Positions 326 through 13,645 of a DNA stretch of 64,000 bases are shown piece after piece. The translations under genes and the position numbers were made by a program. The stretch is from Gemmatimonadota bacterium (GTDB lineage: Bacteria; Gemmatimonadota; Gemmatimonadetes; Longimicrobiales; Gaopeijiaceae): positions 1-64,000 of the forward strand of contig JADFSR010000005.1 in the NCBI GenBank assembly GCA_022560615.1. The letters run 5' to 3'. The notes below the pieces were generated by a model. The model saw nothing but the letters and a program-made list of their open reading frames with translations. It was not told the DNA's origin and ran no database searches. The first letter of the stretch is position 1. Each line of letters starts with the position of its first letter.

Positions 326-457
326 CGCCTGGACATCATCCCGGACCTGTCCGGGCGCACAACCGACGCACTGTGAACCGTCCCCCTCCCTCCTCATGAT
401 CACGCCCGGAACGTGACATGAGGGTGGGCTTGGTGGGTGTAATAATATCTAACATTC

Positions 458-486
458 TTGGCATGACTCCACCGATGTGTTACATA
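458..486 (+). promoter_or_regulatory. possible sigma70-type promoter of the XRE/inositol operon
   Basis: TTGGCA (458-463) is followed after 17 bases by TACATA (481-486), upstream of the XRE gene start at 524. The -35 is close to consensus but the -10 is weak. A locally AT-rich stretch (440-456) lies just upstream. Confidence 0.3.
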
Positions 487-523
487 TCCTTCCCCGAGAG
501 GGAGCGGGCTCAACAACAAAAGT

Positions 524-1828
524 ATGGCCAAGAATCTGAAGAATATCGGTAGTAAGCTCCAGGAAGCGCGGACGTCACGCGGCCTCACCCAGGCTGACAT
601 CGCACCTCAGCTCGGTGTATCACGAGCCACCGTCGCCCAAATCGAGACAGGACGGCGATCCTTGAAGGCCGAAGATCTGCGCCGGCTAGCTGCCTTTTAT
701 GGCTGTAGCCTCAGCGAGCTCCTTCCCCCGGCTTCCGACGACCAGGGAACGGATGGCGTTGCCGAGCTGTTCCGCTCCCATCCTGATCTCGCCGAAGATC
801 AGGGGCCGAGTTCCCTCGCCGGTGTGTGCGCGATCGCGAGAACTCTCACCGATCTGGAAGCAAGACTCGAGATCGACGCCACTGCATACTCGCTTCCTTT
901 GTACCGAGTTGAGCGCGTAACTACGGCGTGGCAAGCGGCGCGGCAAGGATATCGCATTGCAGAGGATGAGCGGCGGCGCCTAGCACTTGGAGAGGGGCCC
1001 ATCCGCTTTCTTGACGAGCTGCTGATTACGTCCGGCGTGCGTTCGGCCAAGGCGACTCTGCCGACCGGAGTCCTCTCGATTTCGATCGCTCAACCGGATC
1101 ACGGGCTTCTTGTTGTGGTCGACAAGAACCTTGGCCTCGCACACCGCCGCTTCAGATACGCACACGGACTTGCCCATCTCCTGTTCGATACCGAAGGGCC
1201 GTGGCGCGTATGCGGTGCTGGCGGAGCGCCTGACTTGGCGGAGGTGAGGGCAGACGCTTTCGCCAGCGCCTTTCTGATTCCCCAGCACGGCCTTCGTCGA
1301 TACGTGGAGACCCTCGGCAAAGAGACGCTGGGACGCGTTGGTCCCACGGTACTCTCGGTGTATTCGGAGGGCGACGGTCGTGACAAGACGGGCGAGAGCC
1401 GTCGTGTGGATGGTCGCCAGCGTAGGGGTCGTCATCCGATGACCTTGTCGGACGTCCTGCGCACGGCTCACTACTACGGCACGAGTCCCAGCGTGGCAGC
1501 ACATCGTTTGAGAAACCTCCGACTATTGACGGACCGTGAACTCGATCAACTCCAGACGATGTTGCAAAGCGAAAAGCGTGCGCCGGTCGACGAGGAACTT
1601 GCGCTGCAGGCGGCACCCCATGAGATGGACTCCCTCTGTTCTCGACTGGCGGAGCTCGCGGCCAGCGCACTCCATCGGGGGCACATCGATACCCCCAGAT
1701 TCGACGAAGTAGCGGATCTCGCAGGAGTTCCCGTGGCAGACCGAGAGCGTCTCTTGGCCATTACTGCCACGCCTCCACAGCAAGAGCGTGAGAGTTCCAG
1801 CCAGACTTCGCATGAAGGAGCGGGATGA
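524..1828 (+). CDS. XRE-family regulator with ImmA/IrrE-like (DUF955) domain, degenerate zinc motif
   Basis: A 434-residue protein. Residues about 11-66 form an XRE helix-turn-helix (LTQADIAPQLGVSRATVAQIE). Residues about 190-260 follow the ImmA/IrrE metallopeptidase-like fold, ending in the family's FASAFLIP segment. The expected HEXXH is HGLAH (214-218), so the catalytic Glu is Gly, and the usual E-A-N third-ligand segment reads R-A-D (242-244). It is therefore probably a non-proteolytic sensor/repressor; in this family the C-terminal domain normally controls the DNA-binding domain or a partner. The last codons overlap the next gene by ATGA, so it likely regulates the inositol genes it is co-transcribed with. 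ATG at 524 gives the full HTH; no well-spaced ribosome site is seen. Confidence 0.85.
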   Translation: MAKNLKNIGSKLQEARTSRGLTQADIAPQLGVSRATVAQIETGRRSLKAEDLRRLAAFYGCSLSELLPPASDDQGTDGVAELFRSHPDLAEDQGPSSLAGVCAIARTLTDLEARLEIDATAYSLPLYRVERVTTAWQAARQGYRIAEDERRRLALGEGPIRFLDELLITSGVRSAKATLPTGVLSISIAQPDHGLLVVVDKNLGLAHRRFRYAHGLAHLLFDTEGPWRVCGAGGAPDLAEVRADAFASAFLIPQHGLRRYVETLGKETLGRVGPTVLSVYSEGDGRDKTGESRRVDGRQRRGRHPMTLSDVLRTAHYYGTSPSVAAHRLRNLRLLTDRELDQLQTMLQSEKRAPVDEELALQAAPHEMDSLCSRLAELAASALHRGHIDTPRFDEVADLAGVPVADRERLLAITATPPQQERESSSQTSHEGAG

Positions 1829-2676
1829 GCGTCACCCGGATCTACAACGCACCGCCGGACGCTCAGGAGATGCTGGTGTTGCTCCGGCGGCTTCACGCGG
1901 AGTCCCCACAGGGTCTCGACCAGATTCGACCTGGACTGGACCAGAGGGAGACCGTCGGTGTGAACGCCAAGGGCGACGACCAGAAGCGCTTCGATGTCGC
2001 TGCTGACGAATGGATCCGACAGTGGCTTTCAGAGCAATTCGAAAGCGGTGTCGTGGAGTCTGAGGAGCGGACGGGCGCGTTCGAGTTTGGGAACGGCAAG
2101 CAAGGCTACCGTTTCATCGTCGACCCGGTCGATGGTTCCGACAACTTCGCGCGTGGCCTGCCGTTGTCCGCCATCTCGCTGGCTATCCTTCCGCGACAGA
2201 CCCGGGTCTCCACTGACCAAGTCATCTACGCGTTGGTGGGTGACGCATCGGGCCCCGCCGCCGCCGTCGCGGCACGCGGAGATGGAGCCTACTCCGACGG
2301 CCGGAGCTTGCGCACATCGGAGACGCGCCGTCTTCGCGACGCTTTCGTTTCCTGTGAGTTGAACCATTGGGCGCCGGGCGCCTCTCTGGCCAAGGTGCTA
2401 GGGACGTGCTCCGGTGTGCGTGTCTACGGCTGCGCCTCACATGCTCTTCGCCTGTTGGCAGAGGGGGCGCTGGATGCCCATGTCGACGTCAGGAACCGAT
2501 TGACGCCCGAGAGTTTTCTCGCGGCCTCGTTACTCGTCACCGAGGCCGGTGGCCACATCTGCCGTGTGGACGGCGGGGCGCTCGGTCCATTTCAATCGCT
2601 GCAGGATCGCACGACACTCGTCGCCGCATCCACGAAAGAACTTTCGGAGGAGATTATCAATGCCCTCGCTGGATAG
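1825..2676 (+). CDS. inositol monophosphatase / FBPase-family phosphatase
   Basis: A 283-residue cytosolic member of the Mg-dependent sugar-phosphatase superfamily. Visible motifs are ESEERTG (metal-binding Glu region, around residue 74), DPVDGSDNFARG (the DPxDGTxNF signature, around 96-107) and the TEAGG loop near the end. The usual W-D metal ligand before the last helix is replaced by P-E-S. Start ATG overlaps the upstream stop as ATGA, with AAGGAG seven bases before it. Its coupling to a cytidylyltransferase/CDP-alcohol transferase fusion suggests it dephosphorylates an inositol phosphate or di-inositol diphosphate product. An FBPase- or PAP-phosphatase-like role cannot be excluded. Confidence 0.85.
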   Translation: MSVTRIYNAPPDAQEMLVLLRRLHAESPQGLDQIRPGLDQRETVGVNAKGDDQKRFDVAADEWIRQWLSEQFESGVVESEERTGAFEFGNGKQGYRFIVDPVDGSDNFARGLPLSAISLAILPRQTRVSTDQVIYALVGDASGPAAAVAARGDGAYSDGRSLRTSETRRLRDAFVSCELNHWAPGASLAKVLGTCSGVRVYGCASHALRLLAEGALDAHVDVRNRLTPESFLAASLLVTEAGGHICRVDGGALGPFQSLQDRTTLVAASTKELSEEIINALAG

Positions 2677-4162
2677 GATTCCACCCGCGGAAACAGCCAC
2701 TCCCCTTGCCGTGATCCTCGCGGCCGGCGAGGGGAGCCGCCTGCGGAAAGTTCGTTCGGCCGTGCCCAAACCGCTTGTCCGCTTGCGAGGCCTTTCGATC
2801 GCTGAGAGATCGATAGCACAACTGCTCACGGCTGGTGTGGAGCGATTTGTCGTCGTTCTCGGCTGTGACGCGGCGCTTGTCCGGCACGAATTCGAGCGCG
2901 TCGCGAGACGACGTCGCTGCCATATCTCTTTTGTCGAGGCTGAGAACTGGGAAAAAGGGAACGGCTGTTCCGCGGTCGCTGCCGCTCCCTTGGTCGGCGA
3001 CGGACCGTTTCTCCTGACCATGGTCGATCACCTGCTATCCACGGAGATGATCCGGCATGTGCTGGCTGACCCACCGGCACTGGACGAAGTCGCGCTCGCC
3101 GTCGATCACGCTACTGAAGACGTGTTCGATCTTGCCGATCTCACAAGAGTGGAGGTGTCCGGAGGGCGCATTGAAGCGATTGGGAACGACCTCGCGACTT
3201 GGAACGCAGGCGATACGGGGCTGTTCTACTGTTCCTCAAGGCTATTCGAAGGGCTGGCAAGAGCGCACAGGCAGGGGAAGTTCTCCTTGACGGACGGGAT
3301 CCGAGAATGCGCTGCCCAAGGAGGGGTTCGTGCGATCGACGTGACCGGTAAGCTTTGGCTCGATGTGGACACGCCGGAAGCCTTTCAGGAAGCGACGCGC
3401 TGGATCGACGCGGCCATGGAGAAGGGGGGAGAAGATGGCTTCATCTCCCAGTTCATGAACCGTCCGGCCTCCCGTCGCCTTTCGGTGGCTCTGTCGAGAA
3501 CGCCCCTGACACCCAATCACATCACGCTGATATCCTTCTTCATGGCGCTGCTCGGCGCCGTCGGCTTGGCCACTACAGACCCGTGGATTTGGATCGCCGC
3601 AGGGATGCTCATTCAGATCGCCTCTATCGTGGATGGGTGCGACGGTGAGATCGCGCGGATCAAGTTGCTTCACAGTCCCCAAGGCGCCTGGCTAGATACG
3701 GTGTTGGATCGGTATTCCGATCTGATGATCGGGCTTGCCGTGACATTCGGGGCTTCACAACTGTACGACGCGCTCTGGGTTTGGCCAGCCGGCTTCGCTG
3801 CAACGGCGAGCTTCCTCATGGCGAGCTATGTTACCAAGGAGTTCCAGATTCGTTTTCGGCGTCCCTATCCCAATGGTCTCCTAAACAAACTCAAGCGCCG
3901 AGATCTTCGCATCTTCGTCATCGCGGTCGGTGCTGTAGTGGGGCACCCGTTTATGGCGCTGCTGGCCGTCGGGTTAGTGACTCACCTTGCCGTGTTCCTG
4001 ATTCTCGTGTCTGGCTGGCAGACCACTCTCGATACATGGCGAGTGCCTACGCCACAAGGCATAGGAACTTCAACGGGCCCATACATCGCAAGTGAGGCAT
4101 ACGACTGGTCGAACACGGACTCTGGGATGAGTCTCGGCCTCGGTTCAAAGGCCGGAGTCTGA
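2660..4162 (+). CDS. bifunctional IPCT/DIPPS-like protein: nucleotidyltransferase fused to CDP-alcohol phosphatidyltransferase
   Basis: A 500-residue fusion. Residues 15-250 are a sugar-phosphate nucleotidyltransferase with the LAAGEGSRLR loop, PKPL at 36-39, and the MVDH/EKGNG pattern of inositol-1-phosphate cytidylyltransferases. Residues 265-480 are a membrane CDP-alcohol transferase with the complete signature D325-G...A332-R333...G342...D346...D350. In Archaeoglobus the same fusion makes CDP-inositol and joins it to inositol-1-phosphate to give di-myo-inositol-phosphate phosphate. ATG at 2660 is chosen because GGAGG lies at 2646-2650 and the N-terminus then begins just before the nucleotide loop; it overlaps the phosphatase gene by 17 bases. 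No inositol-1-phosphate synthase is in the window. The alternative is synthesis of a phosphoinositol lipid or glycan. Confidence 0.85.
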   Translation: MPSLDRIPPAETATPLAVILAAGEGSRLRKVRSAVPKPLVRLRGLSIAERSIAQLLTAGVERFVVVLGCDAALVRHEFERVARRRRCHISFVEAENWEKGNGCSAVAAAPLVGDGPFLLTMVDHLLSTEMIRHVLADPPALDEVALAVDHATEDVFDLADLTRVEVSGGRIEAIGNDLATWNAGDTGLFYCSSRLFEGLARAHRQGKFSLTDGIRECAAQGGVRAIDVTGKLWLDVDTPEAFQEATRWIDAAMEKGGEDGFISQFMNRPASRRLSVALSRTPLTPNHITLISFFMALLGAVGLATTDPWIWIAAGMLIQIASIVDGCDGEIARIKLLHSPQGAWLDTVLDRYSDLMIGLAVTFGASQLYDALWVWPAGFAATASFLMASYVTKEFQIRFRRPYPNGLLNKLKRRDLRIFVIAVGAVVGHPFMALLAVGLVTHLAVFLILVSGWQTTLDTWRVPTPQGIGTSTGPYIASEAYDWSNTDSGMSLGLGSKAGV

Positions 4163-4274
4163 TCCGGGAGGAAGTCTCCTTGGGGCGGCGCCTCGGCGAA
4201 TCGTGGAGCCTGCCACTACCACTCACCTTGCGGCCTGCGGTGTGCTTGGGCACGGTGAATAGGGAGTCCAGCGA

Positions 4275-4492: not shown

Positions 4493-4498
4493 TCAGGT

Positions 4499-4858
<360 letters not shown>

Positions 4859-4885: not shown

Positions 4886-5293
4886 TCAGGTAAGCGCGCG
4901 GAGAGCGTCGGCGGGCGTCATGGCAGCTACTGGAGACCGCCGGAAGTCCTTCGTATTCCGAGTGACGATGAACTCCGCCCCGCACGCGCGAGCGGCCGCA
5001 ACCTGCATCGCGTCCTCGAAGTCCCGCATGGGGAGCGAGGTCGCGTAGCGCAGCGCTTCGGTATCCGTGGGGGCGACGGTCACGAAATGCGTTAGGCCTT
5101 CGATGAAGTCCTTCGCGGCCGCGCCGCCTCGCGTGGGCCTGACGAGGTAGTAGAAGTTCGAGATCGTGTGCCAGGCCACGAACGCGCTACGTGGGGCGCG
5201 CTCCAGGTGGTCGAGCAGCTCCGCCGCAGCGTCGGCGTGCGGCGTCCGATCGAGCGCTACATCGAGCAGCACGTCGGTATCGAGCAGAATCAC
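4886..5293 (-). CDS. PIN-domain toxin (VapC-like ribonuclease)
   Basis: A 135-residue PIN domain. It begins ILLDTDVLLDVALDR, where the first acidic active-site residue sits, and carries the later motif MRDFEDAMQVAAARACGAEFIVTRNTKDF with the conserved D...A...I-x-T-x-N/D pattern of PIN nucleases. Such toxins cut RNA in a Mg-dependent way and are neutralised by a cognate antitoxin. The GTG start at 5293-5291 overlaps the antitoxin stop as GTGA, which decides the start. It is the second gene of a minus-strand pair. Confidence 0.85.
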   Translation of the reverse strand: MILLDTDVLLDVALDRTPHADAAAELLDHLERAPRSAFVAWHTISNFYYLVRPTRGGAAAKDFIEGLTHFVTVAPTDTEALRYATSLPMRDFEDAMQVAAARACGAEFIVTRNTKDFRRSPVAAMTPADALRALT

Positions 5294-5511
5294 AGGTACT
5301 TCTTCGCGAGCGCCCGGTAGAGTGGGTCGTTCCCATCGGCGGCCTCGAAGCGACCTCTCCAGCGTGCGGAGAACGACGGCGACTCGTCGCCCGCCATCTC
5401 TCGAAGCGAGTCTTCGACGAGCGAGGACAGCGACACGCCGCGGCCCCGCGCATACCGCTTCGCACGGGGAAGGAGCTCGGAGTCGACAGTAATCGTGAGT
5501 TTCTTTTTCAT
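5290..5511 (-). CDS. antitoxin of the PIN toxin (DUF6364-like)
   Basis: A 73-residue protein starting MKKKLTITVDSELLPRAKRYA, a ribbon-helix-helix-like N-terminus like that of small antitoxins of the DUF6364 type. It continues through ...GVSLSSLVEDSLREM and a charged C-terminal tail (SARWRGRF...LYRALAKKYL) suited to binding the toxin. It is translated first and overlaps the toxin by four bases. A perfect inverted repeat immediately upstream probably serves as its autoregulatory operator. Confidence 0.8.
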   Translation of the reverse strand: MKKKLTITVDSELLPRAKRYARGRGVSLSSLVEDSLREMAGDESPSFSARWRGRFEAADGNDPLYRALAKKYL

Positions 5512-5605: not shown

Positions 5606-6760
5606 ATGAACTCGCCCGAGTACGACCTCGACGCGGTGCGGAGCCAGATCCCGATCCTGCGCACGCACATCCCGATGAACAACTGCTCGCAGGCGCCCCA
5701 GTGCTCGGCCACGCGCGCCGCCGCGGACACGTATCTGGATTCCTGGAACGAGGCGGGCATGGACTGGGATGCGTGGATCGGCGAGGTCGAAGCCGCGCGT
5801 GCCGAGTTCGCCGCATTCGTCGGCGCGCAGGCGACCGATGTGGCCATCGCGACGTCGGTCTCCCAGGCCACCGCAAGTATCGCGAGCGGGCTCGACTTCA
5901 CCGGCAAACGGTACGGCGTGGTCGCGAGCGGCGGGGAATTCCCGACCGTGGGGCACGTGTGGCTCGCGCAGGAACGCTTCGGTGCCGAAGTGAGCTGGGT
6001 CCCGGTGCGCGACGGCATGATTCACCTCGACGACTACGCGTCCTTGATCGGAGAGCAGACGCTGGTGGTATCCGCGTGCCGGGGCTACTACCAGACCGGC
6101 TTCAAGCAGGACGTCGGCGCCATCGCGGAAATGGCCCACGCCGAGGGTGCTCTGCTCTACGTGGACGCGTATCAGACGCTGGGCACCGAAGTGTTCGACG
6201 CGCCTTCGAGCGGCGCGGACTTCGTCGCCTCGGGCAATCTCAAGTTCCTGATGGGCATGCCCGGCATCGCTTTTCTTTGGGTCAGGCCGGGGGTTGCCGA
6301 GCAGCTCCAGCCCTCGATCACCGGGTGGTTCGGGCGCGAGGACCCGTTCGCGTTCGATGCGCAGCAGCTTGATTGGGGTGAGGGTGCGAGGCGCCTCGAC
6401 ACGGGCACGCCGCCCGTCGTGGAGGCATATGTCGCGCGCGCGGGCATGGCCTGGATGCGCGAGCTCGGCATGGCCGCGATCGCCGACTGGGACGCGCATC
6501 TCGGGCTCCACACCGTGCAGGGCGCACTCGCTCGTGGTATGGAAGTCATGGGGCCGACCGACGAGCTCCATGAGCCCCGAGCGCCCACGACCGCGATCGC
6601 GTGTGCGGACAGCCACGCGGTTGAAGCAAGGCTACGCGAGCGCGGCATCATCGCATCGGCACGCGGGCCCGCGATCCGCATCGCGCCGCATTTCTATAAC
6701 ACGACGGACGATGTGGATCAGGCGCTGGACGCGCTGAGGGAGGTGATGGAGTCGGCGTGA
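5606..6760 (+). CDS. class V PLP-dependent aminotransferase-family enzyme
   Basis: A 384-residue fold-type I PLP enzyme related to cysteine desulfurases, isopenicillin-N epimerases and kynureninases. The PLP-pairing Asp is D187 (LLYVDAYQ) and the Schiff-base lysine is K213 (SGNLKFLMG). No cysteine-desulfurase active-site Cys loop is evident. Its stop overlaps the GTG of a sodium-coupled amino-acid transporter, so a role in catabolism of a transported amino acid is more likely than Fe-S assembly. The substrate is unknown. It is divergent from the toxin-antitoxin pair, about 95 bases away. Confidence 0.82.
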   Translation: MNSPEYDLDAVRSQIPILRTHIPMNNCSQAPQCSATRAAADTYLDSWNEAGMDWDAWIGEVEAARAEFAAFVGAQATDVAIATSVSQATASIASGLDFTGKRYGVVASGGEFPTVGHVWLAQERFGAEVSWVPVRDGMIHLDDYASLIGEQTLVVSACRGYYQTGFKQDVGAIAEMAHAEGALLYVDAYQTLGTEVFDAPSSGADFVASGNLKFLMGMPGIAFLWVRPGVAEQLQPSITGWFGREDPFAFDAQQLDWGEGARRLDTGTPPVVEAYVARAGMAWMRELGMAAIADWDAHLGLHTVQGALARGMEVMGPTDELHEPRAPTTAIACADSHAVEARLRERGIIASARGPAIRIAPHFYNTTDDVDQALDALREVMESA

Positions 6761-8088
6761 GTCAGCGCGAGACCTTCGGCACACGGCTGGGGCTACTCGC
6801 AACGATGATCGGCCTGGCGGTCGGCCTCGGCAATGTGTGGCGGTTCCCATACATGGTCGGGCAGTTCGGCGGCGCAGCGTTCATCCTTCTCTACGTGGCG
6901 ATCGCCGGGCTGATCGGCGTGCCGGCGCTCATGGGCGAATGGTCGCTCGGGCGGCACACACGGCGTGGCACGCTCGGGGCGTACGAGCGAGTGGGCGTGC
7001 CGGGCGGCCGCGGAGTCGGCTGGCTGCTCATCGGAATCGTGTGGTTCGCGGTCGCCTACTATACCAACGCGATCGGTTGGGTGGTGTACCACACGCTGGC
7101 GGAGGTGCTCACCCCGTTCGGCCGGCCGATCGACGCGTCGCGGATCCTCCCGCCCGAGACCGGATTCTCGGGCGTTGCGTTCGGGCTGCAGCTCGGATTC
7201 ACGGCGCTGGTCCTGCTGGCTGAGGCTGCGATCATCCTGCGGGGTGTGCGAGCCGGCATCGAGACAGCGTCCAAGATCATCACGCCCGTCCTCTTCGTTG
7301 TGCTGCTCATCGTAATCGTGCGATCGGTCACGTTGCCCGGAGCGGGCGAGGGCATCCGCTGGCTGCTGGCGTTCGACGCCTCGAGCATCACCCCGACAGT
7401 CGCGATCGCCGCTTTGGGCCAGGTCGTCTTTTCGGTCGGACTCGGCGGCACGCTGATGCTCGTGTACGGATCGTACCTCGGCAGTGACGCCAACATTCGA
7501 TCCGACGCGATTTGGACGGTCGTCGGTGATACCGGCGCGGGGCTCCTGGCGGGTCTTGCGATCTTCCCGGCGGTCTTCGCTTTCGGCATGGAGCCGGGTT
7601 CGGGCCCCGGGCTGCTGTTCGCGACACTGCCGCAGATCTTCGCGCAGCTACCGGCCGGGTGGGTCTTCGGCACACTCTTCTTCGGCGGCTTGTCCGGGGC
7701 CGCGCTTCTATCCGGGATCGCGGCGTTCGAAGTCATCGTCGCCGGCTTCACCGACAGCTTCGCATGGTCGCGCCGCCGCGCCACCTGGACCGTGTACGCG
7801 GTCTCGATCGTCCTCGCGATCCCACCGATGATCAACCTCGAGATCTTCGTGCCCTGGGACCTCACGTTCGGCTCGGGCGGCCAGACGTTTGGAGCGCTCG
7901 TCGCAGTCGTGACCGTTGGCTGGGTGATGAACCGCGCCACGCTCCTCGAGCAGATCGCCGGGGACACGCCTTCGGCGGCCGACCGCGCTCTCATCCACTG
8001 GCTCCGGTGGGTGGTACCGACCGCTGTGATGGCGGCCGCGCTTTGGTGGCTGATCACCGACGTGCTGGGTGCCGCCCAAGGCGTGTAG
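6757..8088 (+). CDS. sodium-dependent transporter, NSS/SNF (LeuT-like) family
   Basis: A 443-residue inner-membrane protein with about 11 hydrophobic segments. The N-terminal TM1 block GLAVGLGNVWRFPYM is the family hallmark, containing the unwound Na/substrate site. TM2 begins FGGAAFILLYV, where the usual NGGG is QFGG. It imports amino acids or related amines with Na+. The GTG start overlaps the upstream PLP-enzyme stop (GTGA), a strong sign of a two-gene operon. TM1 and TM6 features do not by themselves fix the substrate. Confidence 0.9.
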   Translation: MSQRETFGTRLGLLATMIGLAVGLGNVWRFPYMVGQFGGAAFILLYVAIAGLIGVPALMGEWSLGRHTRRGTLGAYERVGVPGGRGVGWLLIGIVWFAVAYYTNAIGWVVYHTLAEVLTPFGRPIDASRILPPETGFSGVAFGLQLGFTALVLLAEAAIILRGVRAGIETASKIITPVLFVVLLIVIVRSVTLPGAGEGIRWLLAFDASSITPTVAIAALGQVVFSVGLGGTLMLVYGSYLGSDANIRSDAIWTVVGDTGAGLLAGLAIFPAVFAFGMEPGSGPGLLFATLPQIFAQLPAGWVFGTLFFGGLSGAALLSGIAAFEVIVAGFTDSFAWSRRRATWTVYAVSIVLAIPPMINLEIFVPWDLTFGSGGQTFGALVAVVTVGWVMNRATLLEQIAGDTPSAADRALIHWLRWVVPTAVMAAALWWLITDVLGAAQGV

Positions 8089-8148
8089 CGGTCCGGCACA
8101 GGCTGCGGCTAGCTTCCTTCCATCTGAGGTACCCCATGGAGAGAACCC

Positions 8149-8688
8149 ATGCATCGTCGTGCTCTTCTCGTCGTCGCTTCGCTGCTTCTCATCGCGCCCA
8201 TCGCAGTCGAGGCGCAGGCGGAGCCGATCGTCATCTACGTCGTTCGCCACGCCGAGCGCGCCGACGACGGCCCCAATTCGGGGTTCACGGGGGATACCAG
8301 CGATCCGCCGATTTCCGAGTCCGGCTGGGCACGTGCACGACTCATCGCGGAGATGCTCGACGATGCCGGTGTGACCCAGGTGCATTCCACGGACTACTTG
8401 CGCACGCGTTCGACCGGCGAGCCGACGGCTGAGGCCGAGGGGCTCGAGATCGAGTCATACGATCCACGCGACCTGCCGGGCTTCGCGGCCCGGCTCAGGA
8501 CGATGCCGGGCAGGCATCTCGTCCTGGGTCACAGCAATACCACACCACAGCTCGTCGAGGCGCTGGGTGGGGATCCCGGCACTGCGATCGAGGCGATGGA
8601 ATACGATCGCTTCTACATCGTTACGATCGTCGGCGGCACCGTGAGCACGGTCCTGCTCCGTTTCGGGGAGCCGTTCGAGGGGCGCTGA
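8149..8688 (+). CDS. exported histidine phosphatase (phosphoglycerate mutase-like)
   Basis: A 179-residue protein with a cleavable signal peptide (hydrophobic segment ending VEAQA). The core begins with the catalytic motif VVRHAERAD (R-H phosphohistidine box). The second catalytic His lies in VLGHSNTTPQLV. This is the histidine phosphatase branch that includes SixA and extracytoplasmic phosphatases; substrate unknown. It starts 60 bases after the transporter and is 8 bases from the next gene, so the four genes may be co-transcribed. Confidence 0.82.
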   Translation: MHRRALLVVASLLLIAPIAVEAQAEPIVIYVVRHAERADDGPNSGFTGDTSDPPISESGWARARLIAEMLDDAGVTQVHSTDYLRTRSTGEPTAEAEGLEIESYDPRDLPGFAARLRTMPGRHLVLGHSNTTPQLVEALGGDPGTAIEAMEYDRFYIVTIVGGTVSTVLLRFGEPFEGR

Positions 8689-8695
8689 GAGAGCC

Positions 8696-10120
8696 ATGTC
8701 GTATGACGCCGTCGTCGTCGGAGCCGGACCGAACGGCCTCTCGGCCGCGATCGAGCTCGCACGGAACGGGCTCTCCGTTCTGCTGCGTGAGGCGACCTCC
8801 ACGGTCGGGGGCGCGGCCCGCACCGAGGAGCTGACCGAGCCGGGCTTTCTTCACGACGTCGGGTCGGCGGTCTACCCGATGGGCATCGGCTCGCCGTTCT
8901 TCAACTCGCTCCCGCTCGAAGAACACGGCTTGCAGTGGGTTCACCCACCGGTTCCGTTCGCCCACCCGCTCGACGGCGGGCGCGCCGTCGTGTTCCATCG
9001 CTCGGTCGGGCATACCGTGACCGTGCTGGGCAAGGACGGGGCAGCGTACCGCCGGCTGGTCCAGCCGTTCGTGCGCAAGTGGCCGACCTTCGTGGATCAC
9101 GTGATGACGACGCCCGTGCGTCCGCCGCGCGACCCGGTGCTGATGGGTCGTTTCGCCCTGCGTGCGATCCAGTCGACGACGGCGCTGGCCTCGAGGTTCA
9201 AGACCGAGGAGGCGAGAGCCCTCCTCGCCGGGTGCGCCGGGCACTCCGCCGTCCGACTGGAGGTCGCTCCTTCGGCTGCGATCGGGATGGTGCTCATGGT
9301 CGCCGGCCACGCGGTGGGGTGGCCCGTTCCGAAGGGCGGTGCCGGCGCGCTCACGGGGGCGTTGGCCTCACTCTTCGAGTCGTTGGGAGGCGTGATCGAG
9401 ACCGATGCCCCCGTCGCATCGCTCGAGCAGCTACCGCCCCGGAAGGCGACGCTGCTCGCGCTCACGCGGGGTCAGGTGGCAGCGGTCGCCGGCGAGCATT
9501 TCCCCGACGGCCACCGAGCTCGGCTCGAGGCGTGGCGGTACGGCCCGGGCGCCTTCAAGGTCGACTGGGCGCTCGACGGCCCGATCCCGTGGCAAGCATC
9601 CGAGTGCGAGCTTGCCGGTACACTGCACCTCGGTGGCTCGCTCGAGGAGATCGCGGCCGCCGAGCGGGCTCCCTGGGAGGGCCGGGTGTCCGACGAGCCC
9701 TTCGTGCTGTTGGCGCAGCCGTCTCGATTCGACGCGACCCGTGCGCCCGAGGGCAAACACACGGCCTGGGCGTATTGCCACGTGCCGAACGGCTGGGAGG
9801 GTGACGCAACCGCCGCGATCGAAGCGCAGGTGGAACGCTTCGCACCGGGCTTCGGCGCGAGGGTGATCGCGCGTCGGATACACGGTCCCGCCGCGCTGCA
9901 GGCATGGAACGCCAACCTCGTCGGTGGGGACATCAATGGTGGCGCGCTCACGATGTATCAGACCTTCGGACCGAGTCGGTGGAAGCTCAGCCCGTGGACC
10001 ACGCCCGTCAGCGACCTCTACGTCTGCTCGGCATCGACGCCACCAGGCGGTGGCGTGCACGGGATGTGTGGATACCACGCGGCCCGAGCCGCGCTGAGGC
10101 GTACGTTCAAGATCCGCTGA
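8696..10120 (+). CDS. FAD-dependent oxidoreductase, phytoene desaturase-like
   Basis: A 474-residue flavoprotein. The N-terminal Rossmann motif is VVVGAGPNGLSAAIELARNG, followed by the GG-x-x-R-T segment (VGGAARTEEL). The C-terminus has ASTPPGGGVHGMCGYHAA, the FAD-contacting tail of the crtI/amine-oxidase-like superfamily. No carotenoid genes accompany it, so the substrate is unknown. GTPs and membranes are not implied by the sequence; it appears soluble. It closes a plus-strand run and converges with the next gene two bases away. Confidence 0.8.
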   Translation: MSYDAVVVGAGPNGLSAAIELARNGLSVLLREATSTVGGAARTEELTEPGFLHDVGSAVYPMGIGSPFFNSLPLEEHGLQWVHPPVPFAHPLDGGRAVVFHRSVGHTVTVLGKDGAAYRRLVQPFVRKWPTFVDHVMTTPVRPPRDPVLMGRFALRAIQSTTALASRFKTEEARALLAGCAGHSAVRLEVAPSAAIGMVLMVAGHAVGWPVPKGGAGALTGALASLFESLGGVIETDAPVASLEQLPPRKATLLALTRGQVAAVAGEHFPDGHRARLEAWRYGPGAFKVDWALDGPIPWQASECELAGTLHLGGSLEEIAAAERAPWEGRVSDEPFVLLAQPSRFDATRAPEGKHTAWAYCHVPNGWEGDATAAIEAQVERFAPGFGARVIARRIHGPAALQAWNANLVGGDINGGALTMYQTFGPSRWKLSPWTTPVSDLYVCSASTPPGGGVHGMCGYHAARAALRRTFKIR

Positions 10121-10122
10121 GA

Positions 10123-10962
10123 CTAGAAGCGCGTCCCGAAAAGCACGGTGAGTCCAAACTCCGGGCTGAACGGCGTCCAGCCGCGTGCGCCGGTGACCTT
10201 GATCCATCGATCGCCGCCGATCACCGCCCCCACCCTCACTTCCCCGAGGTTCTCGTTGCCGCGTCGATCGCGGCTCGACCTCGGATCGTGCTGCCCGGTC
10301 AGCTCCAGGAGGGGGCTCACGAGCCCTCCCTCGTACATGAATGATGCCGCGAACAGGATGGGCTCGATCTGCTCGTGACGTGGGTCGCGCGTGCCGTTGA
10401 CCCCCGCGCCCCCTTCGATCGAAACAGCGAGCGGACCTCGGTGGAAGCGCAGGCCGAGCGTGGCGAAGAAGTCCGCCTGGTCCCGGCCCAAACCCTCCCG
10501 ATTGTCGGTGGTGGGAAGCCGCGTGCCGAAGCGAAGCGCCGCGCCGACCTTGGCATCGTTCCCGGTCAGGCGGATGATCGTCGACACCCGGATATCCCCC
10601 GCATCGCGTCGACTCGAGCCGTCGGGAGGTCGCGTATCCTCGAGGGGCTCCGCGAAGACATGCTGGTCGACGAAGAGACGAAGGAGCGTGCCTGCCAAGC
10701 GTACAGCCACGCGCTCGTACGCCCATGTGGCCTGGAACGCGGCGACCTCGGCTAGGCGGCCCTCGACACCGGCGAGCGAAACTCGCTGACCCGTGTAGAA
10801 GCCCCCACCCACCACGACCGTGCCGCCCGGACGCTCGAAGGTCGACCAGCCCATGGGGTCGAGTGGGCGCAACTGCGCTCCCCCCGGTACGGCAAAGCAA
10901 CCGAGAGCCAGGAGCGAGAGCACACCTGCAAACAGTGCGAAAAGGGGGAGAATTCGGGGCAT
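10123..10962 (-). CDS. predicted outer-membrane / periplasmic beta-rich protein, unknown function
   Basis: A 279-residue protein with a signal peptide (MPRILPLFALFAGVLSLLALG...). The remainder alternates polar and hydrophobic residues in strands (for example VRLAGTLLRLFVD, KVGAALRFGTRLP, FFATLGLRFHRGPLAVSIEGG) and ends in an aromatic residue (GLTVLFGTRF). This is typical of outer-membrane beta-barrels. The start at 10962 is chosen because translation further upstream is Arg-rich and lacks a signal sequence. I do not recognise a specific family. Confidence 0.65.
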   Translation of the reverse strand: MPRILPLFALFAGVLSLLALGCFAVPGGAQLRPLDPMGWSTFERPGGTVVVGGGFYTGQRVSLAGVEGRLAEVAAFQATWAYERVAVRLAGTLLRLFVDQHVFAEPLEDTRPPDGSSRRDAGDIRVSTIIRLTGNDAKVGAALRFGTRLPTTDNREGLGRDQADFFATLGLRFHRGPLAVSIEGGAGVNGTRDPRHEQIEPILFAASFMYEGGLVSPLLELTGQHDPRSSRDRRGNENLGEVRVGAVIGGDRWIKVTGARGWTPFSPEFGLTVLFGTRF

Positions 10963-11090
10963 GGCGACAGCAATATGGCAGCGGCGAAACGGCTCCGTAA
11001 GGCCCGACGGGCTGATCGACTGCTCTGGCGGGGCCCGTGCGACACAAGCAGGTTGTCTCGACTCACTTCCCGCGGATCGGATCCGGACGA

Positions 11091-13007
11091 ATGGCATATC
11101 GCTCAGCCTCAGCACTGCTCGCCCTGCTTCTCCTCCCCCTCGCCGCAACCGCCCAAAACGACGGCGAGTGGCGCGCATACGGAAGCGACGGCGCCTACAC
11201 GCACTACACCCCGCTCGATCAGATCGACGCGTCGAACGTCCGGGACCTCGAGATCGTGTGGCGCTGGAGCGGACGCAACTTCGGTCCGAACCCGTTCACC
11301 CGGACGGAGACGACACCGCTGATGGTCGACGGGGTCCTTTACGCGACCGCCGGCATCACGCGCACCGTCGTTGCGATCGACCCGGGCACCGGGGAGACCC
11401 TCTGGACCTGGCGCATGGACGAGAGTGATCGCCTCCGGGGCGCGCCCCGGGCGAATTCCGGTCGTGGCGTGTCGTACTGGGAGGATGCGTCCGGCAAGGG
11501 GCGCATTGTGGTCGTGACCCCGGGTTACCACATGGCGGCGCTCGACGCCAAGACGGGCATTCCGGTGGAGGGCTTCGGCAAGCACGGCATCGTCGACCTC
11601 ACGGAAGGCCACCGGACACGAGACGGCATCGACATGGCCAGCTCCATCGGGGCCAGTTCTCCGGCATCCGTCGTGGGCGACGTGATCGTGGTCGGATCGG
11701 CGCACCACGTCGGGATGCGGCCGCCTTCCATGGTGAACACGCCCGGCGACATCCGAGGCTTCGACGCCGCAACCGGCGAGCTGATCTGGACGTTCAAGAC
11801 GATCCCCGAAGCCGGAGAGCTCGGGGTCGATACGTGGGAGGATGAGTCCTGGACGTATACCGGCAACGCTGGGGCGTGGGCAGGCATCTCGTACGATACC
11901 GAGACCGGAATCGTCTACGTGCCCACCGAGGCCGCCACCGGCGACCTGTACGGTGGTCACAGGCACGGCATCAATCTCTTTTCGACGAGTCTCGTCGCCT
12001 TGGATTCCAGGACAGGCGAGCGCGTGTGGCACTTCCAGACGATCCATCACGACATCTGGGACTGGGACAACCCGTCCCCTCCGATCCTCGCCGACCTCGT
12101 GATCGACGGGGTCGAGCGGAAGATCGTGGCACTAATCACCAAGCAGAGCTTCGTATTCGTCTTCGACCGCCTGACCGGTGAACCGATCTGGCCGATCGAG
12201 GAGCGCGCCGTCCCCCAGAGTGATACGCCAGGCGAGTGGACGTCACCGACGCAGCCCTTCCCGACTAAGCCCGCACCGTTCGATCGGCAGGGCTTCAGCG
12301 AGGACGACCTCATCGACTTCACGCCCGAGATCAAGGCACGGGCGATGGAGATCGCCAGCGCGTACCGCATGGGCCCGATCTATTCGCCCCCGTCACTGCA
12401 GGAGCACGAGGACGGCACGCGCGGTCAGCTCTCGCTGCCGAGCTCGATCGGCGGGTCGAACTGGGAGGGCGGGGTCCTAGACCCGGAGACGGGATTCCTC
12501 TACATAGGCTCGATGACCAACCCGTCGGTGCTGGCGCTGGTCGAGGGGGGAGACCGCTCCGACATGGACTACATCGCCGGCGGCGGGCGCGCTCAGATCG
12601 CGCGGGGCGTATCGATCGTCAAGCCTCCATGGGGACGCATCACCGCGATCGACCTGACCACGGGCGAGCACGCTTGGATGATCGCCAACGGAGACACGCG
12701 GCCCAACGTGGCAGAAGCCCTCGGGCTGGATCTCGCGGACCTGCCAAGGACGGGGAAGGCGTCCCGCGCGGGGCTCATGGTGACCAAAACGCTCCTCTTT
12801 GCGGGAGAAGGCCTGTCCGGGGACCCGATCCTGCGGGCACACGACAAAGCCACCGGTGAGATCATAGCCGAGCTCGAGCTGCCCAATGCCCAGGGCGGTC
12901 TACCGATGTCGTATATGCACGAGGGCAAGCAGTACGTGTTGCTCGCCGTTGGCGGCGGCGGGGAACCAGCCGAGATCGTGGCGTTCGCGCTGCCCGACGG
13001 GGAATGA
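11091..13007 (+). CDS. periplasmic PQQ-dependent dehydrogenase (quinoprotein)
   Basis: A 638-residue beta-propeller enzyme with a signal peptide ending near ATAQND. It opens with EWRAYGSDGAYTHYTPLDQID, the PQQ-dehydrogenase entry. It contains tryptophan-docking repeats (DLEIVWRWSG, GELIWTFKT, GERVWHFQTIHHDIWDWD) and the HHDIWDWDNPSPP segment of the membrane glucose-dehydrogenase-like branch. There is no N-terminal membrane domain and no CxxCH, so electrons must leave to a separate carrier. The next gene, a cupredoxin lipoprotein overlapping by ATGA, is the obvious candidate. PQQ biosynthesis genes are absent here. Substrate (sugar or alcohol) is unresolved. Confidence 0.88.
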   Translation: MAYRSASALLALLLLPLAATAQNDGEWRAYGSDGAYTHYTPLDQIDASNVRDLEIVWRWSGRNFGPNPFTRTETTPLMVDGVLYATAGITRTVVAIDPGTGETLWTWRMDESDRLRGAPRANSGRGVSYWEDASGKGRIVVVTPGYHMAALDAKTGIPVEGFGKHGIVDLTEGHRTRDGIDMASSIGASSPASVVGDVIVVGSAHHVGMRPPSMVNTPGDIRGFDAATGELIWTFKTIPEAGELGVDTWEDESWTYTGNAGAWAGISYDTETGIVYVPTEAATGDLYGGHRHGINLFSTSLVALDSRTGERVWHFQTIHHDIWDWDNPSPPILADLVIDGVERKIVALITKQSFVFVFDRLTGEPIWPIEERAVPQSDTPGEWTSPTQPFPTKPAPFDRQGFSEDDLIDFTPEIKARAMEIASAYRMGPIYSPPSLQEHEDGTRGQLSLPSSIGGSNWEGGVLDPETGFLYIGSMTNPSVLALVEGGDRSDMDYIAGGGRAQIARGVSIVKPPWGRITAIDLTTGEHAWMIANGDTRPNVAEALGLDLADLPRTGKASRAGLMVTKTLLFAGEGLSGDPILRAHDKATGEIIAELELPNAQGGLPMSYMHEGKQYVLLAVGGGGEPAEIVAFALPDGE

Positions 13008-13645
13008 AGCGTGAGAAGACAGGGGTTGGCCGCCGCGCCCACGTCGCCGTCGGCGTCGGGGTGGCCGTCCTCCTCTGTAGCTGCGCCGATGCCGAGCCCG
13101 ACGCACCTCCGTCGGAGCTGACGCCGTCCGAGGGCGTGTTCGGTCAGGCGCCTGCGGCGCTGGGGGGGATCCCTTCCGTGATCACGCTGGAGACCCAAGC
13201 GCCGCTCGACAGAAGTGAGGCCCCCGAATTCCTCATGGATCAACTCGGACTGCAGTTTTCGCCGCTGCGCCTCTTCGTGCGAGTGGGCGAGCCGGTCCGC
13301 TTCCAGAACAGTGAGTCAATCGCCCACAACGTCCATGTCAGCTCCATGTCCGGCGACTCCACGGTGTTCAACGAGGATACGATGCTCGGCCAGAGTGCGA
13401 GCTTCGTCTTCGACGAAGAGGGTGGTTACGACGTCAAGTGTGATGTGCACCCGGGCATGACCGCGTTCATTTTCGTGACGTCAGCTCCGTATGCGGTCTT
13501 TGCCGAACAGGATGGCGCGTTCCAGCTCTCACGGGTTCCCGCCGGCGAGTATACGCTGAAGGTGTGGAGCGTGGACGCGGCCGCGCGCAGCGAGCAGACG
13601 ATCGTGACGGCAGACGGCGAAGGCACCGAGGTCACGCTGCGGTGA
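13004..13645 (+). CDS. cupredoxin (blue-copper) lipoprotein
   Basis: A 213-residue protein with a lipoprotein-type signal (VLLCSC, Cys about 25-27). The plastocyanin-like domain (about 85-160) has a full type-1 copper set: H108 (IAHN), C146, H149 and M152 in CDVHPGM. A C-terminal beta domain (VPAGEYTLKVWS...) resembles a carboxypeptidase-regulatory-like fold. ATG overlaps the stop of the quinoprotein gene, so this is very likely its membrane-anchored electron acceptor feeding the respiratory chain. Confidence 0.85.
   Translation: MKREKTGVGRRAHVAVGVGVAVLLCSCADAEPDAPPSELTPSEGVFGQAPAALGGIPSVITLETQAPLDRSEAPEFLMDQLGLQFSPLRLFVRVGEPVRFQNSESIAHNVHVSSMSGDSTVFNEDTMLGQSASFVFDEEGGYDVKCDVHPGMTAFIFVTSAPYAVFAEQDGAFQLSRVPAGEYTLKVWSVDAAARSEQTIVTADGEGTEVTLR

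Follow-up and report, generated by a model that had tools for sequence, protein, structure and literature searches.

Can a bacterium that probably does not grow at very high temperature make di-myo-inositol phosphate (DIP), a solute whose presence has long been taken to indicate hot marine life, from a small operon that carries its own switch? This question is raised by three overlapping open reading frames (ORFs) at positions 524-4162 of a stretch of Gemmatimonadota DNA (hereafter, the window), which covers positions 1 to 64,000 of a 181-kb contig in a draft genome of 4.5 Mb that is 99% complete (G000). They encode an XRE/M78 regulator, a phosphatase of the IMPase superfamily and a fused inositol-1-phosphate cytidylyltransferase (IPCT)/CDP-alcohol transferase. 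The three overlapping genes proposed in an earlier note on this DNA were borne out both by their coordinates, with ATGA shared at 1825-1828 by the first two and 17 bases shared by the phosphatase and fusion genes, and by Pfam matches above the gathering cut-offs. Our answer, which we hold with reasonable confidence, is that the three genes form a self-contained cassette for DIP synthesis, which moves horizontally, relies on a chromosomal ino1 gene and brings its own regulator.

The same genes were found in the same order in two genomes of the same family (G007 and G001), at 78-89% protein identity, and in a Krumholzibacteriota metagenome-assembled genome (MAG), at 55-58%; because the order recurs in relatives, the arrangement is not due to chance. 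It is important to note that the 80 loci compared below are those that ranked highest among 566 or more relatives, a sample biased towards the window that does not measure prevalence. A set of 87 loci comprises those 80 and seven more, and L060 and L061 come from the same genomes as L082 and L083.

The fused enzyme and its predicted product

Both a nucleotidyltransferase domain (NTP_transf_3, E 7e-13) and a CDP-alcohol transferase domain (CDP-OH_P_transf, 1.1e-10) were identified above their gathering cut-offs in a single chain, as in bifunctional IPCT/DIPPS enzymes. The closest solved relative by sequence is the IPCT-DIPPS of A. fulgidus (4mnd). An AlphaFold2 model built from 42 sequences (mean pLDDT, the predicted local distance difference test score, 89.9) was compared with solved structures using Foldseek, which ranked 4mnd at the top (445 columns, 30% identity; E values in Table 1), followed by AF2299 and then by the inositol-1-phosphate cytidylyltransferases of T. 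maritima and A. fulgidus, a set that also contains the best PDB relatives by sequence; the clustering with non-inositol cytidylyltransferases that would have contradicted the earlier note was not seen. The signature D-x2-DG-x2-AR-x8-G-x3-D-x3-D is present at residues 325-350, and its Asp and Gly residues are invariant in 42 of 42 sequences. The sequence, predicted structure and tree together place the fusion with the DIP enzymes.

One candidate acceptor-binding residue points in the same direction. R153 and R191 of the R. salmoninarum PIP synthase are described as acceptor-phosphate residues (PMC4634129). The fusion has R414 and R417; by-eye alignment matches R417 with R191, and the R153 position is not clearly conserved. 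Arg417, the last Arg of an RDxR motif, occurs in 82 of the 87 alignment rows that have a residue there (91 rows in total, four gapped). The five rows without it (L025, L026, L027, L062 and L118) form one clade of the tree, made up of paralogues with lipid-related neighbors, and this clade lacks the SY and RDxR residues retained in the window. Conservation of RDxR supports, short of proof, a soluble inositol-phosphate acceptor for the enzyme in the window. The earlier suggestion that the last two genes could in principle convert inositol-1-phosphate to DIP is thus supported by sequence, predicted fold, tree and the frequent presence of an adjacent, operon-type ino1 (38 of 87 loci).

One of the paralogous loci, L027 (G007, 5974-13333), combines a fusion lacking RDxR with MlaC, MMPL, a flippase-like gene and a second CDP-alcohol transferase, and L025 and L026 resemble it by eye. 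It looks like a separate locus in this family, likely for making and trafficking inositol lipids.

The linked phosphatase

To our knowledge, the phosphatase step of the DIP pathway has so far only been inferred; a subfamily adjoining the synthase in 30 of the 80 loci offers a concrete candidate gene for it. The phosphatase in the window matches Inositol_P (E 1.5e-25, above the gathering cut-off) and has the metal motifs SEE and DPxDG[ST] (as SEE and DPVDGS). Two further motifs, [ED][LM]NH and DAHxDxRxRxTxE[SN][FY]xA, are common to all 30 copies longer than 200 residues (29 loci and the window), and this signature appears on separate branches of the fusion tree, of the Rhodospirillaceae, Zixibacteria/Eisenbacteria and window types. 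By this signature the phosphatase is a distinct IMPase subfamily, and we predict that it is an enzyme dedicated to phosphorylated DIP (P-DIP).

Loss of ino1 from the operon

The earlier note reported no inositol-1-phosphate synthase. That statement holds for the operon in the window and fails for the genome, which has a single ino1 on another contig (G000:C13:72640-72978), where the note had advised looking for it. Among the genomes of the order that were searched, 58 of 59 have ino1 (G000 included). Two relatives, L072 (UBP10 UBA1149) and L073 (Acidobacteria N074bin37), carry regulator, ino1, phosphatase and fusion genes in one stretch, and three others keep ino1 remnants: 25 bases (96%) in L023 and 76 bases (84%) in L069, both before the phosphatase, and 43 bases (86%) in L024, ahead of a residual phosphatase. 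Since two relatives have the four-gene stretch and three retain these scars, the absence of ino1 from the operon in the window is secondary, and no remnant was identified in the window or in L022. Judged from these comparisons, ino1 once belonged to the operon lineage and now resides elsewhere in the genome. At positions 1297-1382 of L024, an in-frame deletion has removed the phosphatase gene except for its final codons, which now follow directly on what is left of ino1.

In the wider set, ino1, phosphatase and fusion occur together in 11 of the 80 loci. A search for ino1 covered 30 genomes (that of L087 was not included) and identified the gene within the operon in 12, one of them with a second copy; the operonic position was confirmed by coordinates for L072 and L079 only. 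Fifteen genomes have the phosphatase-fusion pair without an operonic ino1 and with visible upstream DNA, and 13 of these have ino1 elsewhere; when the pair lies at a contig end (L068, L070 and L077), ino1 was found in one of three.

The regulator and its candidate operator

Both HTH_3 (E 3.9e-15) and Peptidase_M78 (4.6e-9) domains were found in the regulator above their gathering cut-offs, so the earlier assignment to the XRE/ImmA-IrrE type stands as far as domains are concerned; it does not extend to the catalytic Glu of M78, which has been lost. All seven cassette regulators have HGLAH in place of HExxH, versus HEYAH or HEYGH in the three non-cassette homologues, and peptidase chemistry is therefore not expected. 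Without that Glu, the protein is probably an allosteric sensor of a ligand or stress state and not one that acts by repressor cleavage. Its AlphaFold2 model (nine sequences) is moderate, with a mean pLDDT of 75.9, and in a PDB fold search CapP is the sole match to pass E 0.001; DdrO, PprI and M. tuberculosis 6cz6 are among those ranked after it, and coverage is partial. Close homologues (78-91% identity) were found in four of 59 genomes (G000 included), the same four that have a close fusion. We also considered a toxin-antitoxin reading of this gene; the spr1629 repressor/antitoxin model gave just 39.6 bits against 335, and the reading was set aside because the partner genes are metabolic.

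Seven upstream regions have three elements in common (Table 1): an inverted repeat, a box resembling TTGACA and a TGTTA half-site that overlaps the -10. In five of these regions the score of the repeat is reached by 0 to 7 of 1000 base shuffles of 100-base regions. These observations lead us to predict an autoregulator dedicated to the operon. As the earlier note had supposed, such a regulator appears to be new in this setting: in the literature searched, no XRE/M78 regulator was found in a DIP operon of a bacterium.

Movement of the cassette

The DNA of the cassette is about 85-89% identical to its counterparts in G007, G001 and L071, and 81-87% identical to those of other close relatives. 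Similarity sets in either a little before the operator or close to where the regulator gene begins and, for near relatives, runs to 3968-4055, within the disordered C-terminal tail of the fusion; the flanks are unmatched. The cassette in the window is 85% identical to that of G001, 89% to that of G007 and 86% to that of G405 (L071), and the corresponding values for ino1 are 89%, 75% and 67%. Because the cassette is 81-89% identical between unrelated flanks and the ino1 genes of G007 and G405 are only 75% and 67% identical, we conclude that it moved as a unit. The fusion tree, from which L082 and L083 (duplicates) and L024 (split by runs of N) were omitted, joins the window to G007 rather than to G001 of the same genus (99/91), in a clade whose nine members come from Gemmatimonadota and from MAGs titled Bacteroidetes, Acidobacteria, UBP10 and Deltaproteobacteria. 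These comparisons give good support for transfer within the family; transfer between phyla rests on draft bins.

The last ~20 codons and the stop of the fusion gene are supplied by a repeat at 4102-4188. This dispersed repeat spans ~90 bases or more; eight other copies in G000 align over a longer stretch, possibly as a piece of a multi-copy gene. No transposase or integrase is encoded by the three genes in 419-4055. L073 has an rve-type transposase immediately to the left of its cassette, and in L087 a phage integrase precedes the phosphatase by ~3 kb on the left side. In L073 the sequence repeated beside the transposase (2065-3384) is also copied directly to the right of the cassette (8378-8646), a layout like that of a composite transposon. 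Integration at tRNA sites was examined and rejected: among the loci of ten relatives Rfam identified a single tRNA, which lies in L072 at ~0.5 kb to the right of the cassette, and ARAGORN gave no tRNA for either the window or eight loci.

Genes for the mechanosensitive channel MscS occur near the fusion in five of the 87 loci (L074, L086 and L089, and further off in L069 and L087). Those of L069 (3-461), L087 (3787-4491) and L074 (8821-9528) are 81-85% identical, in MAGs titled Bacteroidetes, Zixiibacteriota and Krumholzibacteriota, and none is more than 7 kb from a DIP-type pair; the channel may travel too. Hsp20 lies beside the fusion in three of the 87 loci (L059, L060 and L082, of which L060 and L082 are from one genome). 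Such stress-related neighbors count in favor of the DIP reading.

Host habitat and proposed mechanism

No match to reverse gyrase above the cut-off was found in the genome, the best match covering only the C-terminal topoisomerase part, which agrees with the earlier view of the host as probably non-hyperthermophilic. Of the 80 loci, 17 have isolate codes of the kind given to sediment sites in the Challenger Deep (PMC8938466).

We propose the following mechanism, in which the DIP product, the phosphatase substrate and the regulatory signal are predictions. The chromosomal ino1 identified here would provide inositol-1-phosphate; judging by homology and residues, the IPCT domain would use this to make CDP-inositol, which the CDP-alcohol transferase domain in the membrane would join to a second inositol-1-phosphate, giving P-DIP, from which the diverged IMPase-like enzyme would remove the terminal phosphate. 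The XRE/M78 protein would bind the inverted repeat and the half-site at its own promoter, thereby controlling the whole operon, in probable response to a ligand or stress state. The solute would protect against salt, pressure or heat stress. An ancestral cassette would have included ino1, which would have been lost where the host has a copy of its own. As far as sequence can tell, this is probably a DIP operon that functions and that has a switch of its own.

A broader proposal, which we put forward tentatively because it seems possible but somewhat short of probable, is that a mobile, self-regulated cassette gives mesophilic and deep-sea sediment bacteria of several phyla an osmolyte or piezolyte regarded as typical of hot habitats. 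It would bring a dedicated P-DIP phosphatase that represents a new subfamily of IMPases, together with an XRE/M78 switch that is dead as a peptidase and responds to stress directly or via an inositol metabolite.

Weighing the evidence

Several observations weigh against our reading. The top NCBIfam match of the fusion, NF041135 (Thermococcales IPCT/DIPPS), scores 260.6 bits and falls short of the equivalog cut-off of 580; ANME-1 and Desulfobacterales relatives with an adjacent ino1 likewise score below 300 bits, and paralogues with lipid-related neighbors score 229-268 bits, so this score was rejected as a discriminator. The third Asp of the [WP]xDxAA[AG]-type motif is absent from the phosphatase, being Ser in the window and Ser or Asn in all 30 linked copies; Asp occupies this position in PH1897 and in another IMPase of the genome (L159, WDFAA), while a third (L160) gave no assignment there. 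The body of the phosphatase has been lost in frame in G024 (L024), which keeps only the gene ends, and L078, a member of the clade, combines ino1 with the fusion in the absence of a phosphatase, contrary to a dedicated role. Neither the phosphatase nor an operon-type ino1 lies nearby in 23 of the 80 loci, in some because the contig ends, and no ino1 was found in L084 and L103, two of the 15 genomes with the ino1-less pair. The repeat score exceeds shuffles in only five of the seven upstream regions: it was reached by 81 shuffles in L074, where it does not stand out, and by 326 in L073, where the scored stretch missed its site at -122. The core TGTWA-N7-TAACA occurs once in the 4.5-Mb genome, here, but a reversed control pattern likewise has one match in the genome, and the repeat pattern derives from an alignment that includes the window. 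Finally, a crude IVYWREL estimate from the window gives 54 C for growth, a value that is unreliable because spurious long ORFs were included.

We regard it as improbable that the fusion makes an inositol phospholipid by passing the head group of CDP-inositol to diacyl- or dialkylglycerol. A phospholipid formed in this way is reportedly known from Rhodothermus, and paralogous fusions in G007, G003 and G008 lie beside MlaC- and MMPL-like genes, in two cases with a flippase-like gene; CDP-inositol-dependent lipid routes have also been proposed for clusters like that of Bacteroides vulgatus (PMC9246714). These paralogues form a clade apart from that of the window and without SY and RDxR, however, no lipid gene lies within the cassette, and a lipid acceptor needs no linked phosphatase. 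It is quite improbable, in our judgment, that the partner of CDP-inositol is another soluble alcohol or sugar phosphate, with glycero-phospho-inositol or a precursor of capsule as the product, or is free myo-inositol that the phosphatase provides. The active site of the phosphatase is indeed unlike that of canonical IMPases, AF2299, the second fold match, uses CDP-glycerol (PMC4634129), and an older scheme of DIP synthesis has an IMPase supplying free inositol for the final step (PMC1224877); RDxR nevertheless suggests a phosphorylated acceptor, and ino1 is the only further pathway enzyme gene repeatedly beside the fusion (ino1, MscS and Hsp20 were tested).

Mis-binned contigs could also create the appearance of spread between phyla, with the cassette belonging to one lineage. 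The host genomes are drafts and for the most part MAGs, with several short contigs, and the names are those of the submitters. This explanation is unlikely in view of G000 and G007 (99% and 95% complete), whose cassettes are 89% identical between unrelated flanks with ino1 at 75%, an order that reverses against G001 of the same genus (85% versus 89%), and of L069, where both flanks have 51% GC versus 58% in the cassette. The horizontally moving DIP cassette remains our preferred reading.

Features of the locus

The coordinates of the features are collected in Table 1. To the left of the cassette, the contig starts within a minus-strand tRNA. To the right of the RNase P RNA, a VapBC-like pair (a PIN-domain toxin and a small antitoxin) was recognized by eye at ~4886-5510 on the minus strand.

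Table 1. Features of the candidate DIP cassette and its right flank in the window.
Feature	Position	Strand	Basis
Imperfect inverted repeat GTGTAA-N7-TAACAT, candidate operator upstream of -35	437..455	+	Like position in seven aligned upstream regions
-35-like TTGGCA (TTGACA in several relatives)	458..463	+	Upstream alignment
Third half-site TGTTA (478-482) overlapping -10-like TACATA (481-486)	478..486	+	TGTTA in 7/7 upstream regions
XRE-family regulator with M78 (ImmA/IrrE-like) domain, HGLAH at HExxH	524..1828	+	Pfam, alignment, fold search
IMPase-superfamily phosphatase, candidate for P-DIP	1825..2676	+	Pfam; signature in 30/30 linked copies
Fused IPCT/CDP-alcohol transferase	2660..4162	+	NF041135, 260.6 bits; 4mnd, E 1.2e-49 (sequence) and 2.7e-26 (Foldseek); tree
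Dispersed host repeat copy, likely right junction of cassette	4102..4188	+	Eight other genome copies, alignment
RNase P RNA, right neighbor, outside cassette	4495..4858	-	Rfam RF00010, 290.8 bits

Comparison with known systems

The earlier note described DIP as a solute known mainly from hyperthermophiles; that view needs qualification, and DIP genes outside hyperthermophiles are not new in themselves, since they have been reported in cold-living Thaumarchaeota (PMC7265257, PMC8397731, PMC10773090) and in SAR116 bacteria (PMC12262181). What appears to be new in bacteria, in that it was not found in the literature searched, is the regulator, the phosphatase subfamily, the loss of ino1 and the movement. 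Deep-sea archaea have already made DIP less secure as a hot-marine marker (PMC7265257, PMC8397731). A mobile cassette in bacteria would add to this and would also widen the choice of hosts for asking what DIP protects against, and the dedicated XRE/M78 switch with its candidate operator gives an entry to the control of DIP synthesis.

The IPCT/DIPPS of A. fulgidus (4mnd) is alike in its two-domain fusion and motifs; the system described here differs in its bacterial host, its linked phosphatase and regulator, and its C-terminal tail. The DIP operon of Thermotoga maritima, which we take to be TM1418-TM1419, places ino1 beside the genes for IPCT and P-DIP synthase, an arrangement also seen in L072 and L073; compared with that operon, the cassette has a linked phosphatase and an XRE/M78 regulator, has lost ino1 in the window and moves. 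Thermotoga regulons have been described in relation to inositol catabolism (PMC3750489). The genomic island of hadal Thaumarchaeota (IPCT/DIPPS-IMPA-AsnC) resembles the cassette in its merged IPCT/DIPPS, nearby IMPase, transcriptional regulator, small size and cold deep-sea host, and differs in being archaeal and in its regulator family, AsnC (PMC7265257). The putative CDP-inositol lipid cluster of Bacteroides vulgatus likewise places a nucleotidyltransferase and a CDP-alcohol transferase near ino1; unlike the cassette, it has separate genes, a HAD hydrolase and a proposed lipid product, and the passages cited describe no IMPase or XRE/M78 protein (PMC9246714). The HTH and M78-like folds of the regulator are shared with PprI-DdrO, CapP-CapH and XRE/M78 proteins of the M. 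tuberculosis 6cz6 type, CapP being the one significant match, and the cassette regulator is set apart from all of these by HGLAH in place of HExxH.

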